From assembly GCF_947302755.1 (NCBI RefSeq), contig NZ_CAMYWM010000006.1, positions 1 to 46,262 of the forward strand: a DNA stretch of 46,262 nt, written 5' to 3'. Below, one piece after another: positions 12,059-27,575 of this stretch. The notes below the pieces were generated by a model, which did not search any database, was not told the origin of the DNA, and saw only the letters and a program-made list of their open reading frames with translations. The position numbers and the translations under genes were made by a program. The stretch comes from an uncultured Anaerovibrio sp. GTDB taxonomy: Bacteria; Bacillota; Negativicutes; Selenomonadales; Selenomonadaceae. Every line of letters starts with the position of its first letter. Within the stretch, counting starts at the first letter, position 1.

Positions 12059-12182
12059 TTTACTGCCCCCCTGCATAATGTGAAAACCCATAAAATAACC
12101 TATTTTAATTATTCTCCACCTTGCCCTGCAATTCCTGCATTTTATGAATAAATTATTATTTTTTAGCCTTTCAGCCCCACAC

Positions 12183-12211
12183 TAAAAAACCGGACTGTAA
12201 TGGCCAGTCCG
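12183..12211 (-). terminator. Terminator at the end of the exopolysaccharide locus
   Basis: On the minus strand CGGACTG, a 7-base loop and CAGTCCG are followed by GTTTTTTAG. It lies 15 bases after the stop of the double-NodB deacetylase gene, the last gene of the leftward locus. Confidence 0.8.
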
Positions 12212-12225
12212 ATTTTCCATAAATA

Positions 12226-13968
12226 TTAATAATCCCGTGGATTACGTGTTTTATCCATTTTCATCCGCTGGTCATATCCATCATTCAGATAATCCCCCAG
12301 CAGTCCAACCTTAAATTTTCCCGGATGTCCCTCAGGCAGTCTGTCATTGGCCGTCAGGAGAATATCCAACGCTATTGGTGTAAGAGGTGCAGTGGAGCTC
12401 ATATGCATAATCAGGATGGCCCCCCGCTGAACATTGCCCTTTTTATCGTGGACAATGTTATTCATGATCCCAACCAAGGATTGCAAGGATACAGCCCCGT
12501 AATCCTCGGTACTGCCTGAACCATTCACTATATAGGTGAAGCCGGCATTTAAAATAGTCTGTACACCCATTTTGCTTACGGCCAGGGTAGGTGGCCGAAG
12601 GAGTCTGGTAAGAGCCGGCCGGTTGTTTTCCAACCGGATATCCCCTACTACAGACAACAGCTTAGGATATGATGTGGCAACATCCTCCCAATACTCTGCC
12701 GCATCCTCGCCGGGAATCATGTTATTGTGCTCATCATAGGTGGCCATAGCCATATGATTGTTGGTATGACTGCCTATCTCGTTTCCCTCCAGGGCGATGG
12801 CCCGCAGCAAATTGGGATTGTTCAGCATATTCCTGGTAATGATAAAGAAGGTGCCATGTACCTTGTGCTTATGCAGCACATACAGGAGCTTATTGATAGA
12901 ATCATCATTGCCCCAGTCATCAAAGGTAAGGAACACCGTCTTTGGCGGAGCATTTTTTATCAGCCCGGTTTTATCCGCATATATCATCTGGGAACGGCTA
13001 AAATTCAACATACGGTCGTTGACATTAACCTCCGGGGCACCAATGTACCGGCTGAGAAATGCCTCCGTAAAATTCTCCTCCGTCACCCAGTTGGTACCGT
13101 AGTCCGGCTGCATCTCCTCCGGCAGGGCCTGTACATTTACCGGATAACTATAGCCCAGATACCCCTCACTGCCAACATCAGCCAGTGAAGCCGTGTGATA
13201 GGAATAATCATTTTCTTCCCCGGTGCCTTGCTGAGACTGGGGGGCATAAGCGATATTATCAATTTTCTGTTCTTTTATAGCCTGCAGCATTTGCGCCGCC
13301 AAAAAATCATTATCATAAAAATCGGTACGCAGATAAACAATTTCACCCCGATTAAGGGATGTAGTCCATTTACCAAAAATTTGTGGCATAACCTCCTCCG
13401 GACTTTGGGCCGACCTGTGCTTGGACTGAACCACATTGAGACCCTGGCCCACCAGGGTACAGCCCATGGCCGATACAGCCTCACGCATGGCGTCAGCATC
13501 CCCGCCGGCAGACATGATGCGCACAAAGCTGCTGTCAAAGCCATAGGCCTGATTTAACGCTGACCTGATGCGCTGTATTTGTCCGCAATAGTAATAAAAA
13601 TCCCCCTCCCGGGTGGGAACCAGACCTATGGCCAAATCCTGACCGTATTCACGGATAAGCTGTATATTGTCCTGATTTCTACCCAGCTCCCGTTCTGTAA
13701 CGAAGAAGCTCCCCCGCAGTTTTTCTGACGCCATATAATTCAATATATTCCTTAGGGGAAGCTCCTTGGAAAGTCCCCCGAAGGTTAAGATTACTGCCCG
13801 GTCAGTTGTAAGCAAAAACCGCTGCTGTTCAGCCAGCTGACCGCCATTTTGCATCCGTAACTCCCTAAATTCATCTACGGGAGCCGCACACACAGATGCC
13901 AAAAACACTGACAGGCCCAACAAGGCCATTACTGCTACCCGCACCACGGACCCTTTCACTTGTATCAT
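12226..13968 (-). CDS. Secreted polysaccharide deacetylase with two NodB-like domains
   Basis: I place the start at ATG 13968 (MIQVKGSVVRVAV), since AAAGGAG lies just upstream and a clean signal peptide follows (cleavage near VCAAP). The protein is then about 580 residues. The first half (about 40-290) looks like a NodB barrel that has lost its metal site: ILTFGGLSKE replaces the usual TFDDG. The second half (about 340-570) retains the family motifs LTFDDWGND and GSHTNNH, plus LRPPT, which supply the catalytic Asp and metal ligands of carbohydrate-esterase family 4. Such enzymes de-N-acetylate GlcNAc polymers outside the membrane. As the last gene of the polysaccharide locus, it probably tailors the exported polymer. 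A start of 14046, as on the track, would give no signal peptide at the N-terminus. Confidence 0.85.
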   Translation of the reverse strand: MIQVKGSVVRVAVMALLGLSVFLASVCAAPVDEFRELRMQNGGQLAEQQRFLLTTDRAVILTFGGLSKELPLRNILNYMASEKLRGSFFVTERELGRNQDNIQLIREYGQDLAIGLVPTREGDFYYYCGQIQRIRSALNQAYGFDSSFVRIMSAGGDADAMREAVSAMGCTLVGQGLNVVQSKHRSAQSPEEVMPQIFGKWTTSLNRGEIVYLRTDFYDNDFLAAQMLQAIKEQKIDNIAYAPQSQQGTGEENDYSYHTASLADVGSEGYLGYSYPVNVQALPEEMQPDYGTNWVTEENFTEAFLSRYIGAPEVNVNDRMLNFSRSQMIYADKTGLIKNAPPKTVFLTFDDWGNDDSINKLLYVLHKHKVHGTFFIITRNMLNNPNLLRAIALEGNEIGSHTNNHMAMATYDEHNNMIPGEDAAEYWEDVATSYPKLLSVVGDIRLENNRPALTRLLRPPTLAVSKMGVQTILNAGFTYIVNGSGSTEDYGAVSLQSLVGIMNNIVHDKKGNVQRGAILIMHMSSTAPLTPIALDILLTANDRLPEGHPGKFKVGLLGDYLNDGYDQRMKMDKTRNPRDY

Positions 13969-13997
13969 TATGCTCCTTTCAATATAGTACAGAACAA

Positions 13998-15038
13998 TCA
14001 GTTTGCATGGAATTCCTTTATCCGATAATTGCCCCCAAGACGCCAAAGGCTAACCCGTTTAATTCCCCCATCGGCCGCCGCCTTGATCCAAGCCTGAAGG
14101 GTTTTATTATCAGCATACCAAAGCTCGTAGTCATGGCCAGCCTCCTTATAGGTAAAGTGCATGGCATAGCTGGCCTCATCCCGTTCTGGAGTAACCTGGT
14201 GAGCCTTGGCCAACTCAACAGCCTCATCCTCATCAAGGAAGCGTATCTTCCCATGCTGCAGGCCCAACAGGCCATAATCCTCCCACAGACAGCCGCCGGT
14301 GGCAAAGGCAGCAGCCTTTTTGCCGGGTATGGCTTCCATTTTTTTGATGGTTTTGGCTATAAATTCACTGTCAGCCTTTGGCCCCGGTCCATTATGCCTG
14401 CCATGAAGATTGTAAAACATAACCACGTATTCCGGTCCCCTGCAAAGGCCGACATCCATCGGCATTCCGGGCTCCAAAACGATGCGCAGGGACAGCCCCT
14501 CCTTAATGCAGGCCGAGGAAAGCTTATAGGTAAAGGACAAATATTTCTGCAACAAATCACTGTCCTTGAAAAAGGACTCATAATCCAGCTCTATGCCGGT
14601 ACACTGCAGCTCCTTTGCCACCTGGAGCATCTCTGCTATGGTCTGTTCCTTGTGTTTATCATCAGCAAACAGGCGTCTCAGCAGCTCCGTATCCTTGTTA
14701 ATCACCTTGCCCTGTTCATTTTTCCAATCATTTGTAAAGGATATGTAGCGCTGTTCCTGCTTTTCCTCTTTTACAAGGGCTGCAATTTTCCTTGTTTCCT
14801 CCGGAATGAACAGCTTATCCTCCTGGTCATAATAGGCCATAAAGCAGGATACACCGACAAGGCGATTTTTGATGTCCCCATATTCCTTCAGCCCCTTTTC
14901 CTCATCCCATGAGGCTATCCAGGCGGAAAGCACGACAGGCTCATGGCTTCCCACCGAAAGGGAGGAAGCCCCCTGGGCGCAGCCGGACATCAGCAGCACA
15001 GCGGCACCAAGGACAAACATATGTAGTTTCCGTTTCAT
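13998..15038 (-). CDS. GH18-like glycoside hydrolase lipoprotein
   Basis: The start is set at ATG 15038 (MKRKLHMFVLGAA), after AAAGGAGC. It gives a lipoprotein signal peptide with lipobox LLMSGC and a protein of about 346 residues. The sequence CTGIELDYESF matches the GH18-type motif DxxDxDxE in relaxed form; its final Glu would be the acid catalyst. SGCFMAYYDQED and the C-terminal RVSLWRLGG resemble TIM-barrel strands of the chitinase/spore-hydrolase branch. The family cleaves beta-1,4-GlcNAc-type links by substrate assistance. Lying between two deacetylase genes and behind a synthase, it may trim or release the exported polymer, as the PgaB C-terminal hydrolase domain does. Substrate is inferred. 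Confidence 0.75.
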   Translation of the reverse strand: MKRKLHMFVLGAAVLLMSGCAQGASSLSVGSHEPVVLSAWIASWDEEKGLKEYGDIKNRLVGVSCFMAYYDQEDKLFIPEETRKIAALVKEEKQEQRYISFTNDWKNEQGKVINKDTELLRRLFADDKHKEQTIAEMLQVAKELQCTGIELDYESFFKDSDLLQKYLSFTYKLSSACIKEGLSLRIVLEPGMPMDVGLCRGPEYVVMFYNLHGRHNGPGPKADSEFIAKTIKKMEAIPGKKAAAFATGGCLWEDYGLLGLQHGKIRFLDEDEAVELAKAHQVTPERDEASYAMHFTYKEAGHDYELWYADNKTLQAWIKAAADGGIKRVSLWRLGGNYRIKEFHAN

Positions 15039-15052
15039 AGCATCCAGCTCCT

Positions 15053-15598
15053 TTAACCGTTGCGTAAGAACCAGAAAAGAATACTCTCCCACACACTCTT
15101 TGCATCAAATAAAAACTTATCCCAGCCAGTGAGCTCAGTGGTAAACAGCACCTTTTCATCCTTCAGCTCTTTTCCTGTATTGGTGCGAATGGTAAATTTT
15201 TCAAAAACAGCATCGTAGACATCATCGGCTAGATTTCTCTGGCTCCAGCCCTCACCCTGCCATGAGGCACCTAAAAATACGCTGCCATGGTTCGTGTCGT
15301 GAACTATTATTTCCTGGTCAACTCCTTTGCCGTCCAGCGTTAGGCGCAGCACCTCATCCTTTAAGTCAATTTCCAGCCTGTGGTTACCCCGTCTATGGAA
15401 GCTTTGAACGTGCTCATAGGGCTCAGCCCCATCCTGAATAGAGGCTGCAGGCATAGCTTCACGATTTTTAGCCCTGGCGTAATACTCTTCTGCCTGCTGG
15501 GTAGAGGTAGCATAGCGGGCAAAGGCCATGTTTTCCTGAACCTCGGCTTCCCGTTTATTTTCCTCACCGGAAGCTCCCTGGTCTTGTCTCCAGTCTTT
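15053..15598 (-). pseudogene. 3' part of the frameshifted deacetylase-like gene, in the -1 frame
   Basis: The track shows 158 residues from ATG 15529, but the frame is open back to the TGA at 15599-15601 and has no ribosome site of its own. It encodes RQDQGASGEENKREAEV then MAFARYATSTQQAEEYY and a jelly-roll-like segment (LEIDLKDEVLRLTLDGK, FEKFTIRTNTG), ending in a hydrophobic WESILFWFLRNG. The beta-sandwich fits a carbohydrate-binding C-terminal domain of the gene upstream. Its good coding character indicates a very recent frameshift or a sequencing error. Confidence 0.65.
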
Positions 15599-16923
15599 TC
15601 AATTACCACCAGTCTGTTATTCAGCAATTCCACACAAATATAATTTTGCCGGTTAACATCGCTGCGCAGGAAAATCTGCTGTGCCCCAAAGGCATTACCC
15701 AACAAATTTACCGTAACCTTAATATTATGAAGGTTACTGCTCTCCCGAATCTGGGAAACAGCCACCCCCTCAGGAAGGGTAGTAAGGGTATAGGTTTCGT
15801 CCTCCAGCTCCGCGGCACCCTCCAACAATTTCCACTGCTCCTGCCGCCCGGCATCCCCTGTTACAAATTCAATAGGTGTATTGACGTCATACTTAATCCG
15901 CATGAGCAGATGATTAATCGGCCAATAGGGCTGGGGCTGCATTCTGGTAAGGTCATAAATACTGCTGTTGCGCTGATTAAAGCAATAACCCTCACGATTG
16001 AAGGTTATGGAAAAAAGGTCCCTAATCCACTTTTCATTAACGACACTGACAGCATTGTTATTGGCAAATTTTCCCGTGTTTCCATGCATGTGCACATACA
16101 CTGCCGGAACCCGGCCAATCCCTTCGGTATACACATCCCTAATGCGTTTAAAATCGTAGCTTATGCGCCGTACCATATGGTCATGGCTTTCCTTGGGAAT
16201 TCCATCCTTGTCCCGGATATAATCCATGAGATAATGATTGTAGTGACGCTCCAAATAAGGAGTCAGCATGGCATAACGCAATGGATCTATTTCCCCAATG
16301 TAATTATTATACCGGTCAAAGACATTTATATACTCCAGCCGGTAGCCGTTTGTACCGATTTCCCAAAAGCTGGACTCCTCCAGCTCCAAATATTCAGAGG
16401 GCTTTAGAAATTTTAAATCCCTTGATTCAATATTCTCCCCATAGCCCATGATGCTGGCCTTGAAATTTAAATGCTCCAATATAGGCTGGGAAAATATGGC
16501 TGTATCACGCCGCCCATCCTCAAACATCAGAAAAAGGGATTTTTCCGGCAGGGGCCGCCCCTGCTCATAATATTCCCTGATATCCTGCTGAGTAATGGTA
16601 ACGTAGCCCTGATCCTTTAAGGCGCTTAAATGCTTATCCAGCTGCTTTTGACTGATAAGGGTGGAGGTATCACCTATACGATCCACGCCAAAATAGGAAA
16701 GTGCCACAAATCCGGTATCCCGGTCACCTGCAGTGCCCCCGGCTGTATCATAGGGCTTGTAGGTGTCCAGGCTGTAAAACAAGGTATAAAGGACAAAAAA
16801 CATCAGGGCAACCACAATCAGCTCGATAATCACCCGTATCCGCTTTATCATATTTTTACGGGCAGAATATTTCTCATCACCCAGGGAACGGATTCGTCCA
16901 TCCCTACTTTCATTCTGGCTCAT
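15361..16923 (-). CDS. NodB-like polysaccharide deacetylase, membrane-anchored, 5' part of a frameshifted gene
   Basis: The ATG at 16923 lies inside the end of the synthase gene (14-base overlap), behind AAAGGAAC. Residues about 25-48 form a membrane anchor. Residues about 70-300 look like a NodB/family-4 deacetylase barrel (FVALSYFGV, LFLMFEDGRRD, VPAVYVHMHGN), with motifs altered from the usual TFDDG and HxxxH. A beta-rich, carbohydrate-binding-like region follows. From about residue 450 the frame reads unlike protein (PVRKINGKPRFRKTWPLP), while the -1 frame opens after a TGA at 15599-15601 and continues sensibly to 15053. Adding one A to the AAAA run at 15596-15599 would give IEKDWRQDQGASGEENKREAEV... 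and restore a protein of about 620 residues. Either an assembly error or a real mutation is possible. Confidence 0.72.
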   Translation of the reverse strand: MSQNESRDGRIRSLGDEKYSARKNMIKRIRVIIELIVVALMFFVLYTLFYSLDTYKPYDTAGGTAGDRDTGFVALSYFGVDRIGDTSTLISQKQLDKHLSALKDQGYVTITQQDIREYYEQGRPLPEKSLFLMFEDGRRDTAIFSQPILEHLNFKASIMGYGENIESRDLKFLKPSEYLELEESSFWEIGTNGYRLEYINVFDRYNNYIGEIDPLRYAMLTPYLERHYNHYLMDYIRDKDGIPKESHDHMVRRISYDFKRIRDVYTEGIGRVPAVYVHMHGNTGKFANNNAVSVVNEKWIRDLFSITFNREGYCFNQRNSSIYDLTRMQPQPYWPINHLLMRIKYDVNTPIEFVTGDAGRQEQWKLLEGAAELEDETYTLTTLPEGVAVSQIRESSNLHNIKVTVNLLGNAFGAQQIFLRSDVNRQNYICVELLNNRLVVIEKTGDKTRELPVRKINGKPRFRKTWPLPAMLPLPSRQKSITPGLKIVKLCLQPLFRMGLSPMSTFKASIDGVTTGWKLT

Positions 16924-18775
16924 TCTGCTTTTGTTCCTTTCTCTCCATTTTTTTACCCTTCTTTTCCATCTCTTTCAAATCAGCAGGGGTCAAGCGGGTT
17001 CCCCAGGTAGATTTCCAGAAGGTAAACCAGGCAACGGGCATCTGCCAAAGAAGTACCATTTCATAATAAAGGCAGAACCACATTCCAAAAATCCAGGTGG
17101 TGCTCCGTCTAAGGAACAGCTGGGCCATACTCATCATCAGGGACATCAGAAGCATGCCCACCACAAAGGTTACTGGAAATACCCGATGCATTATGGGAAC
17201 ATAAATCAGGTTATAAAGCACGATGATAGGTGCCGCAATCGGTACCACCAGGCCCATGTAAAAGCTCAAGGACATAAAGGGCTCTTTTTTCCATATATAA
17301 CGGGCCGCAATCAGGGACTCACGGAGCCAGGAGCGTTTCCAGCGCATCTGCTGCTTCAGGAACATGGCATAGCTGTTTGGTACAATGGTCCTACAAACCG
17401 CTGAATCCTGATAGGAGGTGCGGTGGTGACGCAAAATGAAATTTGTCATACTCCGGTCATCGCCAAAGGTGGCCTTTTGGCCCAAAAAGGTCTGATTGAG
17501 CCAGGCATCGGAATATTTCAGCACCAAATCACGACGATAGCAGGATAAAGGCCCGGACAGACAGGTAACTGAATCAAAGAAGCTTTCTGCCGCCTTCATA
17601 ATACGAAAGGCAATATAGTACCGTACTGCCTGCATACGGGTAAGGGTATTGGTATAGGTATTGGCCACATCGGTACGGCCGGATACGCCGCCCATTTCCT
17701 TATCCTTAAAGGGCTGAACAATATTGCGAATGGCAAAGGGATCCAAAAAGCTGTCCGAATCCACGAATACCAGCAGCTCATGCTTGGCCTCCTTGGCCCC
17801 CCGGGCCATGGCCTCCCGTTTACCCTGGTTGTATGGCTGAACTATATAGCGGATACGTTCCTCCACCATATAGCCTCCCTGGGCCGTATCTGAAGCTTTA
17901 ATTTCCTGGATAGCTCCCCTTATCTGCTCCACCGAGCTGTCATTGGAGCAATCGTCTATGATGATAACCTCCAGCTTTTCCGGGGGATAATCCTGATTTA
18001 TACAGCTTAAGATGGTAGTTTTTATCCAATTCTCCTCGTTGAAGCAGGGCACAATTATGGTAACCCCCGGCGTAAAATCAGGATTTATCTTTACAGGACG
18101 GTAAAAGGTGGCAAAAAAATACCTTGATAAAAGGAAGGTGGCCGCAATAATACTATAAAGGTAAAGCCAGCGATTAAAGCGGAAATACACCACGGACTCG
18201 GCCCGCATCAGAATAATTACCAGGGTTACTATCCCCAGGCAAAAGGCAGAGGCGGCCAACAGGTAGTTTTGCCGCTTGTGGGCCGCATACTGGGCCAGGG
18301 TATCCGTAAATTCAACGCCGCACAATACGGAGCCATCTCCCCTGTCAAACAGGCGGACACAGGTAGCCTTTAGGGAGCTGATCTTCATTTCATACCCCTC
18401 CGGCATGGAGCCTGGCGTAATTTTAAATTTTAATTTTAGCTTATCCGATTCCTTAATGAGCTGTTCCTTGCCCAGGGGCAGCCTTAACAGCATTCCCGTG
18501 GTACTTATATCAACAGCCTTGGCCACAAACTGCTCCCGTTGTCCCTGATAATAAAAGGAAACGGTAACGTCATAATCCACCATATAACGCTGACCGCTTT
18601 TATCCTCCTTTTCGTACAGTCTGTAGTCAATTTTACCGTCAGCGTCCACTTCATGATGACCGCGACGGTCGTGATTACTTCTGAGACCGCTTTCATCCGG
18701 AACATATGACAATAAGCGGCGATCAGCCTTCTCCTCATAGAGCACATCCGCAGGCGGCTGTTTTTTCTGGGTCAT
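16910..18775 (-). CDS. Family 2 processive glycosyltransferase with N-terminal PilZ domain
   Basis: A 621-residue membrane polysaccharide synthase. Residues about 65-165 look like a PilZ c-di-GMP-binding domain (DISTTGM matches DxSxxG; the preceding basic motif is KSGQR, a relaxed RxxxR). Two helices follow (about 172-225). Then comes a GT2 catalytic domain: IIVPCFNEEN, IIIDDCSND, VFVDSDS, FGDDRS and QQMRW, the D,D,D,QxxRW set of processive beta-glycan synthases (BcsA, PgaC, NodC, hyaluronan synthase). Further helices run from about 490 to 585. It makes and translocates a polymer from UDP-sugar. BcsA carries PilZ at the C-terminus; here it is N-terminal. The ATG directly abuts the upstream stop (AAAGGAGG nearby) and the 3' end overlaps the next gene, so they are translationally coupled. 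The polymer is unknown; deacetylase neighbours favour an N-acetylhexosamine glycan. Confidence 0.88.
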   Translation of the reverse strand: MTQKKQPPADVLYEEKADRRLLSYVPDESGLRSNHDRRGHHEVDADGKIDYRLYEKEDKSGQRYMVDYDVTVSFYYQGQREQFVAKAVDISTTGMLLRLPLGKEQLIKESDKLKLKFKITPGSMPEGYEMKISSLKATCVRLFDRGDGSVLCGVEFTDTLAQYAAHKRQNYLLAASAFCLGIVTLVIILMRAESVVYFRFNRWLYLYSIIAATFLLSRYFFATFYRPVKINPDFTPGVTIIVPCFNEENWIKTTILSCINQDYPPEKLEVIIIDDCSNDSSVEQIRGAIQEIKASDTAQGGYMVEERIRYIVQPYNQGKREAMARGAKEAKHELLVFVDSDSFLDPFAIRNIVQPFKDKEMGGVSGRTDVANTYTNTLTRMQAVRYYIAFRIMKAAESFFDSVTCLSGPLSCYRRDLVLKYSDAWLNQTFLGQKATFGDDRSMTNFILRHHRTSYQDSAVCRTIVPNSYAMFLKQQMRWKRSWLRESLIAARYIWKKEPFMSLSFYMGLVVPIAAPIIVLYNLIYVPIMHRVFPVTFVVGMLLMSLMMSMAQLFLRRSTTWIFGMWFCLYYEMVLLWQMPVAWFTFWKSTWGTRLTPADLKEMEKKGKKMERKEQKQNEPE

Positions 18776-19729
18776 TTAATCAGAGCCTCCTTTTTTGTTA
18801 TCCTTTGGAACTCCAATATTAGCTGGTATATAATGGATTTTTCTGAATTGGTTCACAAAAACCACCGCAACGCCGCGCTGGTCCAAGGCCGTCAGCAGCA
18901 TATCCACTTCCTCAGGTAAATCCAGCTTTGGAACAACCGGAGCTGAATTGTTGTCCTTTATGGTAGGCTTCATGTCTATGGCCGGTTTTTCATTCAGCAC
19001 CATAGGATCAGCCAGCTTTTGCTCCACTGGACGATTGGCGGCAATGGCCACGATGCTGCCATTGGCGATGGCTGACACATAGGCATTGGCTTCAGCCTGA
19101 TTATGAACGGTTCCCGGCTGATACCGAACATTTTCCTTTACAGCGTATTCCAGTCCGGCTGCCCGAAGGGATTTTAATAAATCATCGGTGTAGACCGTGC
19201 GGGGAGCCCGAAAAAGGGTGGGCTGTATCGGGTCATGCATGGCAATAACCTTTTGGGTCCGGCATATTTCCGTAAGCTGTCTTTCCACAGAGCATTTTTC
19301 CATGGCGGCCAGTCCCACATAGGTATAATTTCCTATTTCCTGACCTGCCCCACGAATAATATTAATAACCGACGGCACATCAGCCGCATTTTCCCCCTCC
19401 AAAAAGAATACCGCCTCAGCCTTGTGCTTTTTCAATACGTCCAGCAGACCGGCCGTGGTGGGATAATCCGGCATTCCATCGAAAACAATGGCGATACGCG
19501 GTGATCCATCCTGAAGGGTAGTGATAACCTCCACCGGTTTGAGGTCAGGCTCCTGCCGTTTGGTGGCAGCTTCATTGATTTCCTCCAGAGCTTCATAATT
19601 TTTGCTCAGATCGGTGATATCCTGTACAAATTCCTTCTTTTCAACAATATTATCCCGAATAAATATAAGGGAACCAACTAACACAGCAAGGGCAGTAAAC
19701 ACAATTAAGCCCAGCTTCTTATAATCCAC
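18776..19729 (-). CDS. Membrane-anchored, degenerate polysaccharide deacetylase-like protein
   Basis: A 317-residue protein with GTG start and AGGAGG 9-10 bases upstream. An uncleaved N-terminal helix (about 8-24) anchors it, a short coiled region follows, and residues about 70-220 form a NodB-like barrel. The catalytic site is eroded: IAIVFDGM keeps one Asp of TFDDG, and the metal-binding HTxxH position reads GNYTYVGL, with no histidine. The RAP motif (LFRAPRT) survives. A Pro/Lys-rich tail ends in a segment resembling another strand-helix pair (VDMLLTALDQRGVAVVFV). It probably binds polysaccharide or acts as a scaffold for the synthase, whose start codon abuts its stop, rather than acting as an enzyme. 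That role is inferred. Confidence 0.7.
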   Translation of the reverse strand: MDYKKLGLIVFTALAVLVGSLIFIRDNIVEKKEFVQDITDLSKNYEALEEINEAATKRQEPDLKPVEVITTLQDGSPRIAIVFDGMPDYPTTAGLLDVLKKHKAEAVFFLEGENAADVPSVINIIRGAGQEIGNYTYVGLAAMEKCSVERQLTEICRTQKVIAMHDPIQPTLFRAPRTVYTDDLLKSLRAAGLEYAVKENVRYQPGTVHNQAEANAYVSAIANGSIVAIAANRPVEQKLADPMVLNEKPAIDMKPTIKDNNSAPVVPKLDLPEEVDMLLTALDQRGVAVVFVNQFRKIHYIPANIGVPKDNKKGGSD

Positions 19730-19808
19730 AGTACAATACCTCCTAATTTAACGGGCCAAACCCTTTACCGGTTGAAACACTACAGCATTTCCCCGTGTAA
19801 AATAAACC

Positions 19809-21689
19809 TTATTCAGTGTAATTTTTAAAGCTCTTGGAAATATAGCCCCAAATTGTATTGCTCCTATGACCATAATCCAGATCACTGAGGCTATAGAACT
19901 CAAGTCCCACAGCCCAGGCATCAGGCAGATTGTAGGTAACCCCGATTCCGAAGCCCTTAAAGCCCCCATGCGTACGCATGCGGTCAGCCATACCATTCAT
20001 GGTGTGACTTACATAGGTGGCAGTAGGCTGATAATAATACTTCAGCCAGCTTTGGAAGGTATAAGGCCGCCAGCTGTCCGCCGGCTGATAGGACAGTGAC
20101 AAAACATAACCGGTTTTTCCGCTCAAATTATTCTGCTTGCCGTATAGGACCATGCCTCCCAGGTCAAAGATACCCACATTATGCTTGTAACTGCCCATAT
20201 AAATGTGCTGTGTAATATTATTGTCATATTTAAAGTTATAATACCCGGCATCAACGCTATAATCCGGTCCCTTGTAGGAAGCAAGAAAATCAAAGGACCG
20301 CTTCATGGTATCATAACCTAAATTACCATATTCAAAGGTATAACGCACCGGAGTATCTGTTGTGGAGAGGCGTATCCCCTTATATTTACTGTCGTAAATA
20401 TTGCCCTCAGCCATAACATTGCCAAATACACCTGCATCCGTATGCACCGTACCAATATTTCCACTTAAATAATACCGATCCAGGCGTACATGGGCATCGT
20501 CGTCGTTGTTTTCACCGGAAATAAATTTCTCGGCCTCGACCATACCCTTTGCATGCCAATTACCGTCAATATCATAATCCGGGTACAGACGGGCCCGAAC
20601 CCGCGTCCTGTTCCCATCGCCATGCTCCCCGTCAGAATGACGGGAATCCACCCGCAGCTCCGTATCCAGCTTAAACTTTTGGTCAGGTATATCGCTAACT
20701 GGAATATGGGAGGACAGCTGCTGACGGGCATTGTATGCATCCGTCTCTCCCCCCTCCTCCAGCTCAGTAAGGAATTCGGCCCGAAGACGACCGGCATTAT
20801 CCAGGGCAGAGTCGTTCATACTGTAATTGGCACCATTATATACCCCATTATTTGGCATCCAATTATAAGGCACACCATTATTAGGCATTCCACTGTATGG
20901 TACCCCATTATTTGACATACCATTATAAGGCGCACCATTATTAGGCATTCCATTATATGGCACCCCATTATCTGGCATAGCATTGTCCGGCACCGTATTG
21001 CTGTATACCTGAGCAGGTGCCCCGGAGGACACATAGGGATTTGGCGGTATAGCTCTGTTTTTATTGGTCTCCCCACCACTCATGTTATAAAACAGGGCCT
21101 GCTGCTTCTGTTTGGCATATGCCAACAGCTTTCTCCGCTGATCAACCCGGCTTACTGCTTCAGCATAATCATGGGCCGCAATTTCATATCTGTCCTGGGC
21201 AATATCATGCTTCTCCTTGGTAGGCCCCATTACCTCCAGGCGATTTTGTCCATTCATGGAACGGCGCAAATATATTTCGGCCTCCCTGGCAGCCTTATCA
21301 TGGGCAGAATTATATAAAGCATGTGCCTTTTTGGCCTGTTCCTCAAATATCTTCAGCTGGACCTCGTCCATAACCACCAAACGGGAAATACGGGCATACT
21401 CATCCACGATACTGCCCGAACGTCTTTTTTCCATTTCATTCAGTGCCTTGGCCACCATATTGCTTAATTCCTTTCGGGAATAGGTGCCAAGGGAGTTTTC
21501 CGGCAGCTCCAGATATCCTTCAGCAGCCAATTGTAAAATGGAATCATAAACCCACGGCTCCACAGCTTCGGGAGCGGAGTAGGCCATATTTACTGGAAAT
21601 TCTAAACCAAAAACAACGAACCCCAACAAGCCCCTCTTAATATAAGAGCTCATAAAGGAACGTTGTCCGGCACAAAATATTTTTTTCAC
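19809..21689 (-). CDS. Predicted outer-membrane beta-barrel protein with Asn/Pro-rich repeats
   Basis: A 626-residue exported protein, GTG start, signal peptide ending near AYSAPEA. Residues about 40-85 (WVYDSILQLAAEGYLELPEN..YSRKELSNMVAKAL) resemble the SLH-type envelope-anchoring helices found in Negativicutes outer-membrane proteins. A helical coiled region (about 85-205) is followed by an Asn/Pro/Tyr-rich tract with about 4.5 copies of a 10-residue unit (NNGVPYNGMP). The C-terminal 300 residues alternate in beta fashion (RTRVRARLYPDYD, GMVEAEKFI, VRYTFEYGNLGYD, VGLEFYSLSDLDYGH), as in porin-type barrels. As first gene of the polysaccharide locus it could form the export pore, analogous to PgaA or BcsC; this is inference from position and predicted fold. 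No named family is recognised. Confidence 0.7.
   Translation of the reverse strand: MKKIFCAGQRSFMSSYIKRGLLGFVVFGLEFPVNMAYSAPEAVEPWVYDSILQLAAEGYLELPENSLGTYSRKELSNMVAKALNEMEKRRSGSIVDEYARISRLVVMDEVQLKIFEEQAKKAHALYNSAHDKAAREAEIYLRRSMNGQNRLEVMGPTKEKHDIAQDRYEIAAHDYAEAVSRVDQRRKLLAYAKQKQQALFYNMSGGETNKNRAIPPNPYVSSGAPAQVYSNTVPDNAMPDNGVPYNGMPNNGAPYNGMSNNGVPYSGMPNNGVPYNWMPNNGVYNGANYSMNDSALDNAGRLRAEFLTELEEGGETDAYNARQQLSSHIPVSDIPDQKFKLDTELRVDSRHSDGEHGDGNRTRVRARLYPDYDIDGNWHAKGMVEAEKFISGENNDDDAHVRLDRYYLSGNIGTVHTDAGVFGNVMAEGNIYDSKYKGIRLSTTDTPVRYTFEYGNLGYDTMKRSFDFLASYKGPDYSVDAGYYNFKYDNNITQHIYMGSYKHNVGIFDLGGMVLYGKQNNLSGKTGYVLSLSYQPADSWRPYTFQSWLKYYYQPTATYVSHTMNGMADRMRTHGGFKGFGIGVTYNLPDAWAVGLEFYSLSDLDYGHRSNTIWGYISKSFKNYTE
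20841..20992 (-). repeat. 30-bp tandem repeat inside the beta-barrel gene
   Basis: About 4.5 copies of a 30-base unit encode NNGVPYNGMP with small changes (GVPYNGMP, GAPYNGMS, GVPYSGMP, GVPYNWMP). The unit is a multiple of three, so copy-number change would keep the frame and vary linker length. Confidence 0.8.
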
Positions 21690-22099
21690 ATTTATACAAC
21701 CCTTTCCTGTTATTGCAACTTGAAATTACCATCCCAATAAATATTTATCAAACAAATTTTAAACAGAAAACTAAAGTCTAAAAAAGATACAACTATTTTA
21801 TTTATATCATTAGATTGTGTCAACATAATCAGGATAAAAAATGAAATGTTAGTATTTTAGTCTCAAGAAAAGGTATGATGTTTTTACCAATACTTTTGTA
21901 AAAACACTTGATTGGTGTAACAAATATAAAAATGTTAAATTTGTTACATAAAAATACTTGATATATTTTATGAGCAAATTAGAGGCCCAAATTTAACAAA
22001 TATAGGGAAATATTACCCCCTGGTATTTCGCCAAGCTGTAACCGCCTCTGCCATGGCCATAACTTCGACAATAACATATTTTTATATTATTCGCCATAA
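21690..22099 (-). other. AT-rich upstream region of the exopolysaccharide locus
   Basis: About 410 bases without a credible gene. It holds the promoter at 21795-21823 and a long untranslated leader. Short repeats of TTGTTACATAAAAATACTTGATA and TTTTGTAAAAACACTTGATTGG type (AAAACACTTGAT/AAAATACTTGAT, about 21899-21963) could be regulator sites. No riboswitch could be recognised. Confidence 0.4.
21795..21823 (-). promoter_or_regulatory. Promoter of the exopolysaccharide locus
   Basis: On the minus strand there is TTGACA, 17 bases, then TAAAAT, about 105 bases upstream of the beta-barrel gene. The boxes are close to the vegetative consensus. Confidence 0.7.
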
Positions 22100-22126
22100 A
22101 AAAATCCCTGCCAAAGGACAGGGATT
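22100..22126 (-). terminator. Terminator after tRNA-Thr
   Basis: On the minus strand AATCCCTG, a short loop and CAGGGATT are followed by TTTTTTATGG, starting 9 bases after the tRNA end. Confidence 0.8.
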
Positions 22127-22134
22127 AGCTTACA

Positions 22135-22210
22135 TGGTGCTGGAGACAGGACTTGAACCCGCGACTCCCTCATTACGAATGAGGTACTCTACCAACTGAG
22201 TTACACCAGC
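22135..22210 (-). tRNA. tRNA-Thr (CGT)
   Basis: The minus strand gives acceptor GCTGGTG/TCTCCAGC-type pairing, anticodon loop TTCGTAA (CGT) in stem CCTCA/TGAGG, T loop TTCAAGT and an encoded CCA. It lies 48 bases after the stop of the upstream gene and has its own terminator. Confidence 0.93.
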
Positions 22211-22258: not shown

Positions 22259-23731
22259 TCAGAAATTTTCCAGACGTTTTTTGGTCTGCTTGTTTACCTC
22301 AGTATTTTTCAGGCGTTCTATGGCAGCCTCCATAGCCGGGGTAAGCTGAAAATCCGCCTTACGCCACTTATCCACCGTGTTAAGGGCAATATTTCTGGTA
22401 CCGATTACCGGGGAACAGAGACCGGCACATATCAGCCCTTCGCCCTTGCCGGGTACTGCCTGGAGCCCCTGAATAACGTAGGACAGGATGCCATGCTCTG
22501 CAAACCGTTCATCATTGCCCATTTCGTTTTCCGGGCCGGAGGCCATATCCTCCAGGGGCAGCTCCTCCTCAAAGAGGGCGATGATTTCATCCACATACAG
22601 CTTTTCCGGCAGCAGCAAATCAATCATATCATATTTGGTCCGCCAATCCCGCCGCAGGGCTGCCATGGCCCTATCCCCATAATCAAGGCCCAGTGCCTTT
22701 CCAAGATAGAAGCCCTCCCCGGCATCCATGGCAGTCTCCACACAGTCAATACAAGCATGGGAGGCCAGGATATCATCAGCCTTCTTCAATAAACTGTCCT
22801 TGTCCGCCAGATCACCCTTACCCAAAAAGTCTCTGATATCAAAAATATTACTGTAATCCTCCAGCCCGGCAGCATAGGTGTCGGCCAGCTGCAGGTAAAG
22901 CCCCAAAAGCTGGTTGGTCTTCTTGTATTTACTGAGACCGGGAACAGGGCTGTCCTCCAGGGAGGAGCCAATCAGCTTACCGGCCAAAATGAAATCCTGC
23001 CTTCCCACCTTCTCAGAGGACAATTTCTCCAGCAGGCCCCCCCGTTTAATGGCTACAATGGCGGAATATTCCGGCATAATGGTATTCTGCCAGCCCTCCT
23101 CCAACAGCCATTGGGCAATTTCGTCATTTTCCGGCTTCAGCATACTTACCGCATGTATTCTGCCCCAACCCTTCAGCCGCTTGGCCAGAGAATATATCAG
23201 GGCATTGCCCTCCTCAAAGGAGCCCAACAAAAACAGACAGAACAGGGTCAGCTCCTCCGAGGCCGCCAGCACCAGCAGAATATCCTTCAGCTCCTGGCTT
23301 TCCTCCCGATCCAGCAGCTCCAAAATGGTGATGGCAAACTTGACTGATTCCACATCCTCACTCTGAACCAGCAGGGTCATGCAAAACCGGCCCAATGCCT
23401 CCGGGGATAGCTTCTCCGGATGCTCAAAAACCCAATCCTGAACCGCATCCATCACCGGCAGCATTACCCCACCATTTTGAAAATAAGTAATAAGGGCGTT
23501 GGCCGAATCCTTAAAGCGTTCCTGGGAGGCCATCTCCAGCACCAAGGTCAAGGCACTGATATCAGGATTTTTCGTCGGCCCCATGTGATAACGGACAGTA
23601 CCGTCAATAGCCCCATCGGCAAACCGCAAGCCCTGGTCCGGCAATTGGCGCAGTACAAAATCCTCCGGCAAGGTGCCATCCGGCAGCATTGCCTCCTTTA
23701 TTCGATTATAAATTGATAAATTCTCTGACAT
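22259..23731 (-). CDS. Hypothetical all-helical cytoplasmic protein
   Basis: A 490-residue acidic protein that I do not recognise. It has no signal peptide or membrane helix. Its N-terminus reads MSENLSIYNRIKEAMLPDGTLPEDFVL, and most of the rest is amphipathic helix pairs rich in Leu and Glu, suggesting a HEAT/ARM-like solenoid. Examples are ESVKFAITILELLDREESQELKDILLVL and the C-terminal GTRNIALNTVDKWRKADFQLTPAMEAAIERL. No catalytic motif stands out; a few Cys (SHACIDCVETA) are scattered. It lies downstream of the permease gene on the same strand (28-base gap) and is probably co-transcribed with it, and it precedes tRNA-Thr. Confidence 0.8.
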   Translation of the reverse strand: MSENLSIYNRIKEAMLPDGTLPEDFVLRQLPDQGLRFADGAIDGTVRYHMGPTKNPDISALTLVLEMASQERFKDSANALITYFQNGGVMLPVMDAVQDWVFEHPEKLSPEALGRFCMTLLVQSEDVESVKFAITILELLDREESQELKDILLVLAASEELTLFCLFLLGSFEEGNALIYSLAKRLKGWGRIHAVSMLKPENDEIAQWLLEEGWQNTIMPEYSAIVAIKRGGLLEKLSSEKVGRQDFILAGKLIGSSLEDSPVPGLSKYKKTNQLLGLYLQLADTYAAGLEDYSNIFDIRDFLGKGDLADKDSLLKKADDILASHACIDCVETAMDAGEGFYLGKALGLDYGDRAMAALRRDWRTKYDMIDLLLPEKLYVDEIIALFEEELPLEDMASGPENEMGNDERFAEHGILSYVIQGLQAVPGKGEGLICAGLCSPVIGTRNIALNTVDKWRKADFQLTPAMEAAIERLKNTEVNKQTKKRLENF

Positions 23732-25702: not shown

Positions 25703-27394
25703 TTAAATTAACTTCTCAAATTCCTCCACAGGAATGGGCTTGGAGTAATAATAGCCCTGAACCCAGTAACAGCCTATGGATTTTAGGAAATCCACCTGTT
25801 CCCTGGTTTCAACCCCCTCGGCAATGGTATGCAGATTAAGGCTTTTGGCCATCTGAACAACAGCGCTCAGGATATTGCCTCCCCGGCCGGTTTGGTCCGT
25901 GCTCCGCAAAAAGCCCATATCCAGCTTCAATATATCAATATGAATATCCTTAAGCATATTTAGGGAGGAATAGCCGCTGCCAAAGTCGTCCATTAAAATG
26001 ACAAAGCCTTCATTTTGAAGGCGTTCCGTAACCTCCATAATCATCTTTGGGTCATCGGTATAGGCGGATTCGGTTATTTCCAGCTCCAGCAAATTCTTGG
26101 GAATATCATATTTTTGGGTAAGTCCCACCAAAAAGCTGATCAAATCCGGATCGTAAAGATCGATACGGGACACATTCACCGAGACAGGCTTTACCAGCTT
26201 GCCTGAATCCGTCCACCTTCTGAGGCTTTTACAGGTCTCTTCCCATATATACCGGTCCACTGCATACACGGAGCCGTTTCGTTCCAGAACGGGAATAAAC
26301 AGGGAGGGCACTACACTGCTGCCATCCTCCTTAATCCAGCGCACCAATGCCTCTGAACCAATAATCTGTTCCGTCCGCAGGTCATATTTCGGCTGCAGAA
26401 ACAGCTTAAAGCCACCATGCTCCAGGGCTGAATCGAATTCATTGACAATCATCTGCTCCAGAAGCATCTGATTGCGCATCTTATCGTCATATACGCAATA
26501 TGGAGTTACATGATTGCCCTTCACCTGATTTAAGGCCATATTGGCCCGCTCTATCATGGTGCTGACCGGAATGCTCATGTCATCCACATGATATAGGCCA
26601 AAGGTCAATACTGTATGGTGGGAGATTTCAAAGCTGTTGGCCACTATCTGCATGGTATAAATCAGCTTTTCTGCTTCCCCCTCCCTGGCCTCAAAGCACA
26701 TAACAAAATTGTCGGCATACAGCCGGGCAGAAAGGCACAGCTTCATGTCAATGCTTTTCATAAAGCCGGCCAGATAATTAAGGAGCTTGTCCCCCTGCTG
26801 CTCACCAAAAATCTCATTGATAATCTTGAAACGCTCAATATTGATACGAAGAATGTCAAAGGACTTATCAGGATAATCGGTCATCATATCCGCTGCCCGA
26901 ATGCAGAAGGCTTCCCGGTTAAATAAGCCGGTGGCACTATCATAGGAGGCCAGGAATTCCAAATCGCTGACGTTGGACTCCGTCAACAGCTCATAGGTCT
27001 TTTCCCGATCATAGTCCAATGCCATATTTATGCCATTTATAGTAAACCCATCAGGCACCATCCGATACATGGTAGTGATATTTAACAATAACAGCTTACG
27101 TTGCTGGAGGCTGGTCATAATGATGTGGGACTCAATAGACAGCTGCCCCTCACGAACAAATTGGCGGCTGCGGATCTTACTGATGCTGCAGGGAGCCAAG
27201 CGTTCATATTCCCCCTGAAGAAACCGCTTTACCTCCCAGCTGCCCCGGGAATAATAGTGTCCGGAGGGACTAAAGCCGATAACATTCTCATCCAGCACAT
27301 CAGCCAAGGCATCCACTACGCCTTCGGCAAACAACCGCTTTATTAATTTTTCCGTTGCACGTTGAAGATTATCAATATCTACTTTTAATGCCAT
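25703..27394 (-). CDS. c-di-GMP phosphodiesterase: SnoaL-like, degenerate GGDEF, EAL
   Basis: A soluble protein of about 563 residues. ATG 27394 (MALKVDID) is preferred because GAGG lies seven bases upstream. Residues about 5-130 look like a SnoaL/NTF2-type domain that could bind a small molecule. Residues about 150-300 are a GGDEF domain whose signature reads YADNF, so cyclase activity is not expected. Residues about 310-563 are an EAL domain with EALVRW, SVNVSRIDL, ELEITES, MDDFGSGYSSL, LKLDMGFL, AEGVETREQ and VQGYYYSKP. All the usual metal and catalytic residues seem present. It should hydrolyse c-di-GMP to pGpG in the cytoplasm, perhaps tuned by the other two domains. It lies about 4 kb from the PilZ-synthase locus and is transcribed alone. 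Confidence 0.92.
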   Translation of the reverse strand: MALKVDIDNLQRATEKLIKRLFAEGVVDALADVLDENVIGFSPSGHYYSRGSWEVKRFLQGEYERLAPCSISKIRSRQFVREGQLSIESHIIMTSLQQRKLLLLNITTMYRMVPDGFTINGINMALDYDREKTYELLTESNVSDLEFLASYDSATGLFNREAFCIRAADMMTDYPDKSFDILRINIERFKIINEIFGEQQGDKLLNYLAGFMKSIDMKLCLSARLYADNFVMCFEAREGEAEKLIYTMQIVANSFEISHHTVLTFGLYHVDDMSIPVSTMIERANMALNQVKGNHVTPYCVYDDKMRNQMLLEQMIVNEFDSALEHGGFKLFLQPKYDLRTEQIIGSEALVRWIKEDGSSVVPSLFIPVLERNGSVYAVDRYIWEETCKSLRRWTDSGKLVKPVSVNVSRIDLYDPDLISFLVGLTQKYDIPKNLLELEITESAYTDDPKMIMEVTERLQNEGFVILMDDFGSGYSSLNMLKDIHIDILKLDMGFLRSTDQTGRGGNILSAVVQMAKSLNLHTIAEGVETREQVDFLKSIGCYWVQGYYYSKPIPVEEFEKLI

Positions 27395-27575
27395 ACACAA
27401 GCCTCATTTACAGTGAATAATCATATCGTCGACTTTTATTGTAAAACAAATACTCCCATTAAGCAATATTTCATTGTAAAATTAACATTTGTTAGCGTAA
27501 GCCTTAGGGTGCCACCAATTTCCACCTTATTCACCTTATATATCATGGTCAATGCTAACCCGGGGTGAACAAAAT

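Follow-up and report, generated by a model that had tools for sequence, protein, structure and literature searches.

Introduction

The Pga system (PgaABCD) is the described exopolysaccharide system most similar to the locus analyzed here, having in common with it an inner-membrane GT2 synthase, a protein of the PgaB fold, deacetylase and hydrolase functions, a 16-strand barrel (with TPRs in Sporomusa) and apparent c-di-GMP control. Several parts are nevertheless different, the locus having an OmpM-family barrel, a synthase nearer to HAS and NodC, a cis PilZ domain in place of PgaD, a catalytically degenerate PgaB-like domain separated from the hydrolase, a UDP-HexNAc dehydrogenase, and members in monoderms. 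A second likeness is to the class I hyaluronan synthases and their has operons, which provide the nearest catalytic domain in the PDB and likewise include a linked UDP-sugar 6-dehydrogenase, whereas the present system adds an N-terminal PilZ region, deacetylases, a hydrolase and a porin, and its dehydrogenase is TviB-like rather than of the UDP-glucose type.

The Pss locus of Listeria relies on a different synthase family and a separate c-di-GMP receptor, and is known from monoderms only. It resembles the present locus in being a c-di-GMP-inducible exopolysaccharide locus in a Firmicute (PMC4125290). Among Firmicutes synthases combining GT2 and PilZ, the nearest are the clostridial cellulose synthase Ccs (PMC7710045) and the Romboutsia beta-glucan synthase Cgs (PMC10374906), both of which resemble cellulose synthases and differ in having a BcsA-type GT2 and other partners (CcsB, CcsZ, CcsH and CcsI in the case of Ccs), with no NodB/PgaB-like set and no porin.

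The locus lies in a stretch of 46,262 nucleotides from an uncultured Anaerovibrio sp., the whole of which was analyzed and is referred to here as the window. We consider it to represent what is probably a synthase-dependent exopolysaccharide system under c-di-GMP control, with export through an outer-membrane porin in diderms. A first-pass annotation of the window had regarded the locus as a candidate undescribed system, and no named system matching it was found in a search confined to open-access papers other than preprints, so the novelty is provisional.

Organization of the locus

The gene cluster occupies positions 12,226–21,823 on the minus strand, and since dozens of genomes repeat its gene order, it is more than a chance arrangement. 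It begins with gene A (19809..21689), encoding an OmpM-type outer-membrane porin with a signal peptide, an SLH-like domain, coiled-coil and low-complexity repeats and a 16-strand barrel. A 79-bp spacer (19730..19808) separates A from B (18776..19729), a membrane-anchored degenerate NodB protein which is fused to F in Sporomusaceae and Clostridia, and this is followed by C (16910..18775), the synthase, in which an N-terminal PilZ region is joined to a transmembrane GT2 domain of the hyaluronan synthase/NodC type. D is represented by two overlapping ORFs of 520 and 158 aa, the first (15361..16923) comprising a TM helix and a PgaB-like pseudo-deacetylase domain, and the second (15053..15529), which is out of frame, the end of a CBM66-like module and a C-terminal TM helix. 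The last two genes encode E (about 13998..15038), a GH18-like lipoprotein, and F (12226..13968), a secreted protein with two NodB domains.

Spacing from A to F ranges from overlap up to 79 bp, and a terminator-like stem-loop followed by a T-run is located on the same strand just past the F stop codon (12191..12211). Upstream of A, also on the minus strand, there is a promoter-like −35/−10 pair (TTGACA-17-TAAAAT, 11/12) at 21795..21823, which is a consensus match only: the scan found 29 such matches against 22.5 expected in shuffled sequence, and as they are common by chance, the site alone is weak support for a promoter. The annotated picture of six tightly spaced genes bracketed by one promoter and one terminator holds for the genes, their spacing and the stem-loop, the promoter being reduced to a consensus-like site and D not being intact.

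State of the copy in the window

The window lacks 43 bp near 15,580 (15361–15529) that are held by all six compared relatives, and this deletion breaks the D frame and splits it in two; nearly all other D genes form a single frame of about 560–680 aa. The A–B spacer is the site at which almost all Negativicutes relatives carry a gene for a TviB-like UDP-HexNAc 6-dehydrogenase. None is present at the window locus, and the only NDP-sugar dehydrogenase match in the genome is of the UDP-glucose type. With D broken and the dehydrogenase missing, this copy may not work, or may yield an altered polymer.

The copy is also patchy within its genus: C was sought in 15 congeneric species and found in none, and in two of them (G007 and G002) a tRNA-Thr and a hybrid histidine kinase directly adjoin where the window holds the operon. 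At this site (window 12091–22135) both sister species lack the whole operon; the left-flank kinase is 97% identical to that of G007 and the right-flank gene only 84% identical, which suggests a recombination boundary. Direct repeats of at least 10 bp on either side of the insertion, which would point to site-specific integration, were not found. Beside the tRNA-Thr, all 16 species of the genus encode a 490-aa protein (window 22259–23731) that has no match in Pfam and none above cut-off in NCBIfam.

Given the broken D and the missing dehydrogenase, the copy has either been imported and is decaying or is partly an effect of assembly. A functionless copy, decaying or partly assembled, is a reading for this genome to which we give somewhat less than an even chance, and one that is compatible with the explanation preferred for the family as a whole. 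The frame-breaking deletion, the dehydrogenase missing from both locus and genome, the absence of C from all 15 congeners and the empty site in two of them favor it, whereas A, B, C, E and F are all undamaged and retain their conserved motifs, Sporomusa acidovorans likewise has no in-locus dehydrogenase, and the draft assembly, with 214 contigs and 94% completeness, can hide a dehydrogenase, just as short-read assembly can create a deletion.

Distribution and gene order

A scan of species genomes yielded 80 named loci, in which the core consisting of the NodB protein (B, or B fused to F), the PilZ-GT2 synthase, D and E is collinear between Negativicutes and monoderm Clostridia, as far as the contigs reach. 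With DH standing for the dehydrogenase, the genes follow the order A-DH-B-C-D-E-F in Selenomonas, Mitsuokella, Megasphaera, Dialister and Acidaminococcus, and the order A-DH-(B+F fused)-C-D-E in Sporomusa, Pelosinus, Propionispora, Anaerospora and Lucifera, while Clostridium, Lachnospiraceae, Anaerocolumna, Acetobacterium and Tissierella have (B+F)-C-D-E, with DH present or absent and A never present. When counted in the 59 loci with at least 7 kb of upstream flank (window included), A was present in 40/40 Negativicutes loci vs 0/19 monoderm loci, and its presence corresponds to a single change on the tree of the synthase (SH-aLRT 99). The window locus represents the diderm version of a system that is spread more widely in Firmicutes. 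The first-pass annotation had proposed a diderm-Firmicute counterpart of Pga; comparison of synteny across Negativicutes supports a conserved, c-di-GMP-linked locus of synthase, deacetylase, hydrolase and outer-membrane channel, but the restriction to diderms does not stand, given the barrel-less form in monoderm Clostridia.

A UDP-sugar dehydrogenase gene was located between A and B in every readable locus among the anonymous relatives and in 38/40 Negativicutes loci. Its best NCBIfam model is TviB (NF011729), a UDP-GlcNAc 6-dehydrogenase, at 382–428 bits with a cut-off of 592, making it TviB-like and not of the UDP-glucose type. Of ten other genomes with no dehydrogenase in the locus, five carry one with 51–62% identity elsewhere. 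The gene is missing from many monoderm loci and from the genome of the window, so a uronate is not required everywhere. In Tissierella pigra (L136, 7318–9945) an in-frame fusion joins the first half of the dehydrogenase to the B/F protein, resembling the outcome of a deletion.

The synthase and c-di-GMP

Pfam searches of C returned PilZ (5e-7) and GT2 (6e-30), in agreement with its annotation as a GT2 synthase with an N-terminal PilZ domain. The GT2 motifs DD, DSD, GDDR, QxxRW and WGTR are kept in 81/81 C sequences, as is the catalytic set of the hyaluronan synthases (DxD, GDDR, QxxRW and WGTR). Hyaluronan synthases are also the nearest PDB entries to the GT2 domain (E 4e-43; Xenopus HAS1 and chlorovirus HAS), and in the alignment with 8smm and 7sp7 GDDR and WGTR are held in common. 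Among NCBIfam models NodC scores best, at 175 bits, with PgaC/IcaA at 112 bits, far below the cut-off of 422, and by these scores and motifs C is nearer to hyaluronan synthase and NodC than to PgaC. Membership of Pga by family models was rejected on the PgaC/IcaA score, and a cellulose system (Bcs or Ccs; PMC7710045) was rejected at 48 bits against the CelA cut-off of 699.

The DxSxxG position of the PilZ domain has D in 77 and N in 4 of the 81 sequences. In the RxxxR motif, the second arginine (R63) is invariant (81/81), whereas the first is variable (K in 39/81), and since this first arginine of the canonical motif is not conserved, we infer rather than observe c-di-GMP binding by C. A near-invariant DRR...R...DRR stretch lies N-terminal to the PilZ motifs. 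A c-di-GMP-I riboswitch at the Rfam gathering score precedes the first gene in 13/14 Sporomusaceae-type loci and in Acetobacterium and Anaerocolumna (for example L077 4130–4214, L099 2339–2424 and L135 4762–4855, with 12 others), and none was found in the leader of the window locus or in other Selenomonadaceae loci. Control by c-di-GMP, as had been anticipated for the locus, is supported by the conserved D/NxSxxG and, independently, by the riboswitches of 15 related operons. The genome of the window has 16 GGDEF domains and one PilZ protein besides C; a GGDEF protein (565-aa ORF) is encoded at window 25703–27400, about 4 kb from the operon, and is a possible local source of c-di-GMP. A RAGATH-18 RNA was found at L099 361–421, near the Sporomusa ovata locus.

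NodB-fold proteins, hydrolase and the nature of the polymer

NodB domains were recognized in B and F by family search, and D was recognized as PgaB-like, with weak PgaB model matches. Catalytic histidines are absent from B, D and the N-terminal NodB domain of F; the C-terminal domain of F, with its DD dyad and HxxxH in 77/79 sequences, is the sole one of the four NodB-type domains to keep both. B was correctly described as a degenerate NodB anchor, and F does have the two NodB domains assigned to it, of which only the C-terminal one is complete. The fusion of B and F in relatives suggests that they work together. In D, E146-D147 and GTNGYR replace the DD and the metal histidines in 78/78 sequences, which makes it a conserved pseudo-deacetylase. 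The predicted structure of the intact Selenomonas ruminantium gene product (pLDDT 88.7) consists of a TM helix, a PgaB/IcaB-like domain of the PgaB-N fold, a CBM66-like beta-sandwich and a C-terminal TM helix, with no GH domain. The idea of a competent PgaB deacetylase-hydrolase was rejected on these features, and the description of D as a second NodB-like membrane protein is upheld for its fold and TM helices, though not as one intact gene in the window. E matches Pfam GH18 at 3.8e-5, which is under Pfam's cut-off, and has the DxE catalytic motif in 72/72 sequences, consistent with the GH18-like lipoprotein that had been annotated.

These results bear on what the system makes. A true counterpart of Pga, producing partially deacetylated poly-beta-1,6-GlcNAc with no uronate, would account for the PgaB N-domain fold of D, for the combination of pore, deacetylase, hydrolase and synthase and for the absence of a dehydrogenase at the window locus, but it is improbable in view of the NodC score of C, its alignment with hyaluronan synthases, the loss of the metal histidines in D and the TviB-like dehydrogenase in nearly all Negativicutes loci. 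The proposal of a Pga-like logic built from different and differently split parts is accurate in the functions listed, with the OmpM barrel and the HAS/NodC-nearer synthase setting the locus apart from Pga itself. We regard as equally unlikely a chitin- or chitosan-like 1,4-GlcNAc polymer made by a NodC-type synthase with a NodB deacetylase and a GH18 chitinase: C scores best with the NodC model of NCBIfam, F contains an active-site-complete NodB domain and E is GH18-like, yet the linked dehydrogenase would be left unexplained, and chitin synthases and NodC have GEDR at the position where C, like the aligned hyaluronan synthases, has GDDR. Under the preferred reading, the polymer is possibly a hyaluronan-like HexNAc/uronate chain.

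The outer-membrane barrel

The barrel of A was predicted by AlphaFold (44 sequences) to have 16 strands, with a pLDDT of 85.5. Its closest PDB fold is OmpM1 of V. parvula (PDB 8bym; TM 0.73), with OmpF-type porins behind, and the barrel profile also matches the OmpM1 sequence (E 3.9e-13), so that A is OmpM-related by both fold and sequence. Like the OmpM porins of Negativicutes, it combines a homologous barrel with an N-terminal SLH-like region and a coiled coil; unlike them, it is locked into an exopolysaccharide operon, and the N-terminus varies, being SLH-like with a coiled coil in Selenomonadaceae, a long TPR stretch ahead of the 16-strand barrel in Sporomusa, and short in Pelosinus. The SLH-like N-terminus matches the genome's own OmpM at a profile value of about 4e-11, obtained with sequences preselected on W-x-Y, and the Pfam SLH model gave no match on A. 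The annotated outer-membrane barrel with an envelope-anchor region is borne out, and the fold and profile searches, with OmpM1 as the best fold match, gave no sign of descent from PgaA or BcsC.

C occurs in 56/251 Negativicutes genomes, all 56 of which have a match to A. At E <= 1e-90, A matches are present in 54/56 genomes with C vs 1/195 without C, and the two genes are almost always no more than a few kb apart. As A tracks C genome by genome and adjoins it, the barrel is not a general porin unlinked to the other genes in relatives. In one family (f15), weaker matches to A come from multicopy porins, most of them in genomes lacking C. A role for A as a nutrient porin or envelope tether of the ordinary kind, merely standing beside the operon while the polymer leaves by another route, agrees with its homology to OmpM, a known general porin and tether, but has little to recommend it when A is the leading gene of the operon in almost every Negativicutes locus, strong matches follow C, the genome has a separate OmpM-like porin and the Sporomusa barrel is joined to TPRs, a feature of PgaA and BcsC. 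Putative polymer export through A is suggested by its linkage, its diderm-only presence and its TPR-barrel form.

Proposed mechanism

Drawing on the homologies, motifs, gene order, diderm-only A and riboswitches in relatives, we propose that C, as an inner-membrane GT2 of the hyaluronan-synthase type, would polymerize and translocate a HexNAc-containing chain once c-di-GMP binds to its N-terminal PilZ region, while the TviB-like dehydrogenase usually encoded alongside would give UDP-HexNAc-uronate as a second donor or an alternative monomer. B and D, membrane-anchored and catalytically dead NodB-fold proteins, the latter with a CBM66-like lectin module, may receive and guide the chain, which F would partly deacetylate and lipoprotein E would trim. 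In diderms, the chain is predicted to exit through A, tied to the cell wall by SLH or bearing TPRs, and in monoderms the same machine would operate without it. Set against this explanation are the fold of A, which is that of a general porin family, the absence of a riboswitch at the window, the variable first PilZ arginine and the fact that the dehydrogenase is not universal. A more specific version is tentative and, taken whole, less likely than not: a Firmicutes-wide hyaluronan-like synthase doubly controlled by c-di-GMP, through riboswitch and cis-PilZ, making a partly deacetylated, possibly zwitterionic HexNAc/HexNAc-uronate polymer, which diderms would export through a dedicated OmpM-derived porin independent of the PgaA/BcsC lineage.

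The same polysaccharide machine is present in one- and two-membrane relatives, and the OmpM-type porin gene tracks the outer membrane exactly, offering a concrete, testable case of how a secretion system adapts to having an outer membrane or to losing it. The locus further suggests a matrix polymer, as yet undescribed, in Sporomusa, Pelosinus, Selenomonas, Megasphaera and Pectinatus, and several of these genera are relevant to bioelectrochemistry, rumen biology or beer spoilage, and gives the Negativicutes a c-di-GMP output to test.

Two loci showed further particularities. In one (L070), A and F occur a second time downstream of the operon, at 15553–19803. The other (L120) is from a MAG titled Acholeplasmataceae and carries the diderm form with barrel A, on account of which its taxon label is probably wrong.
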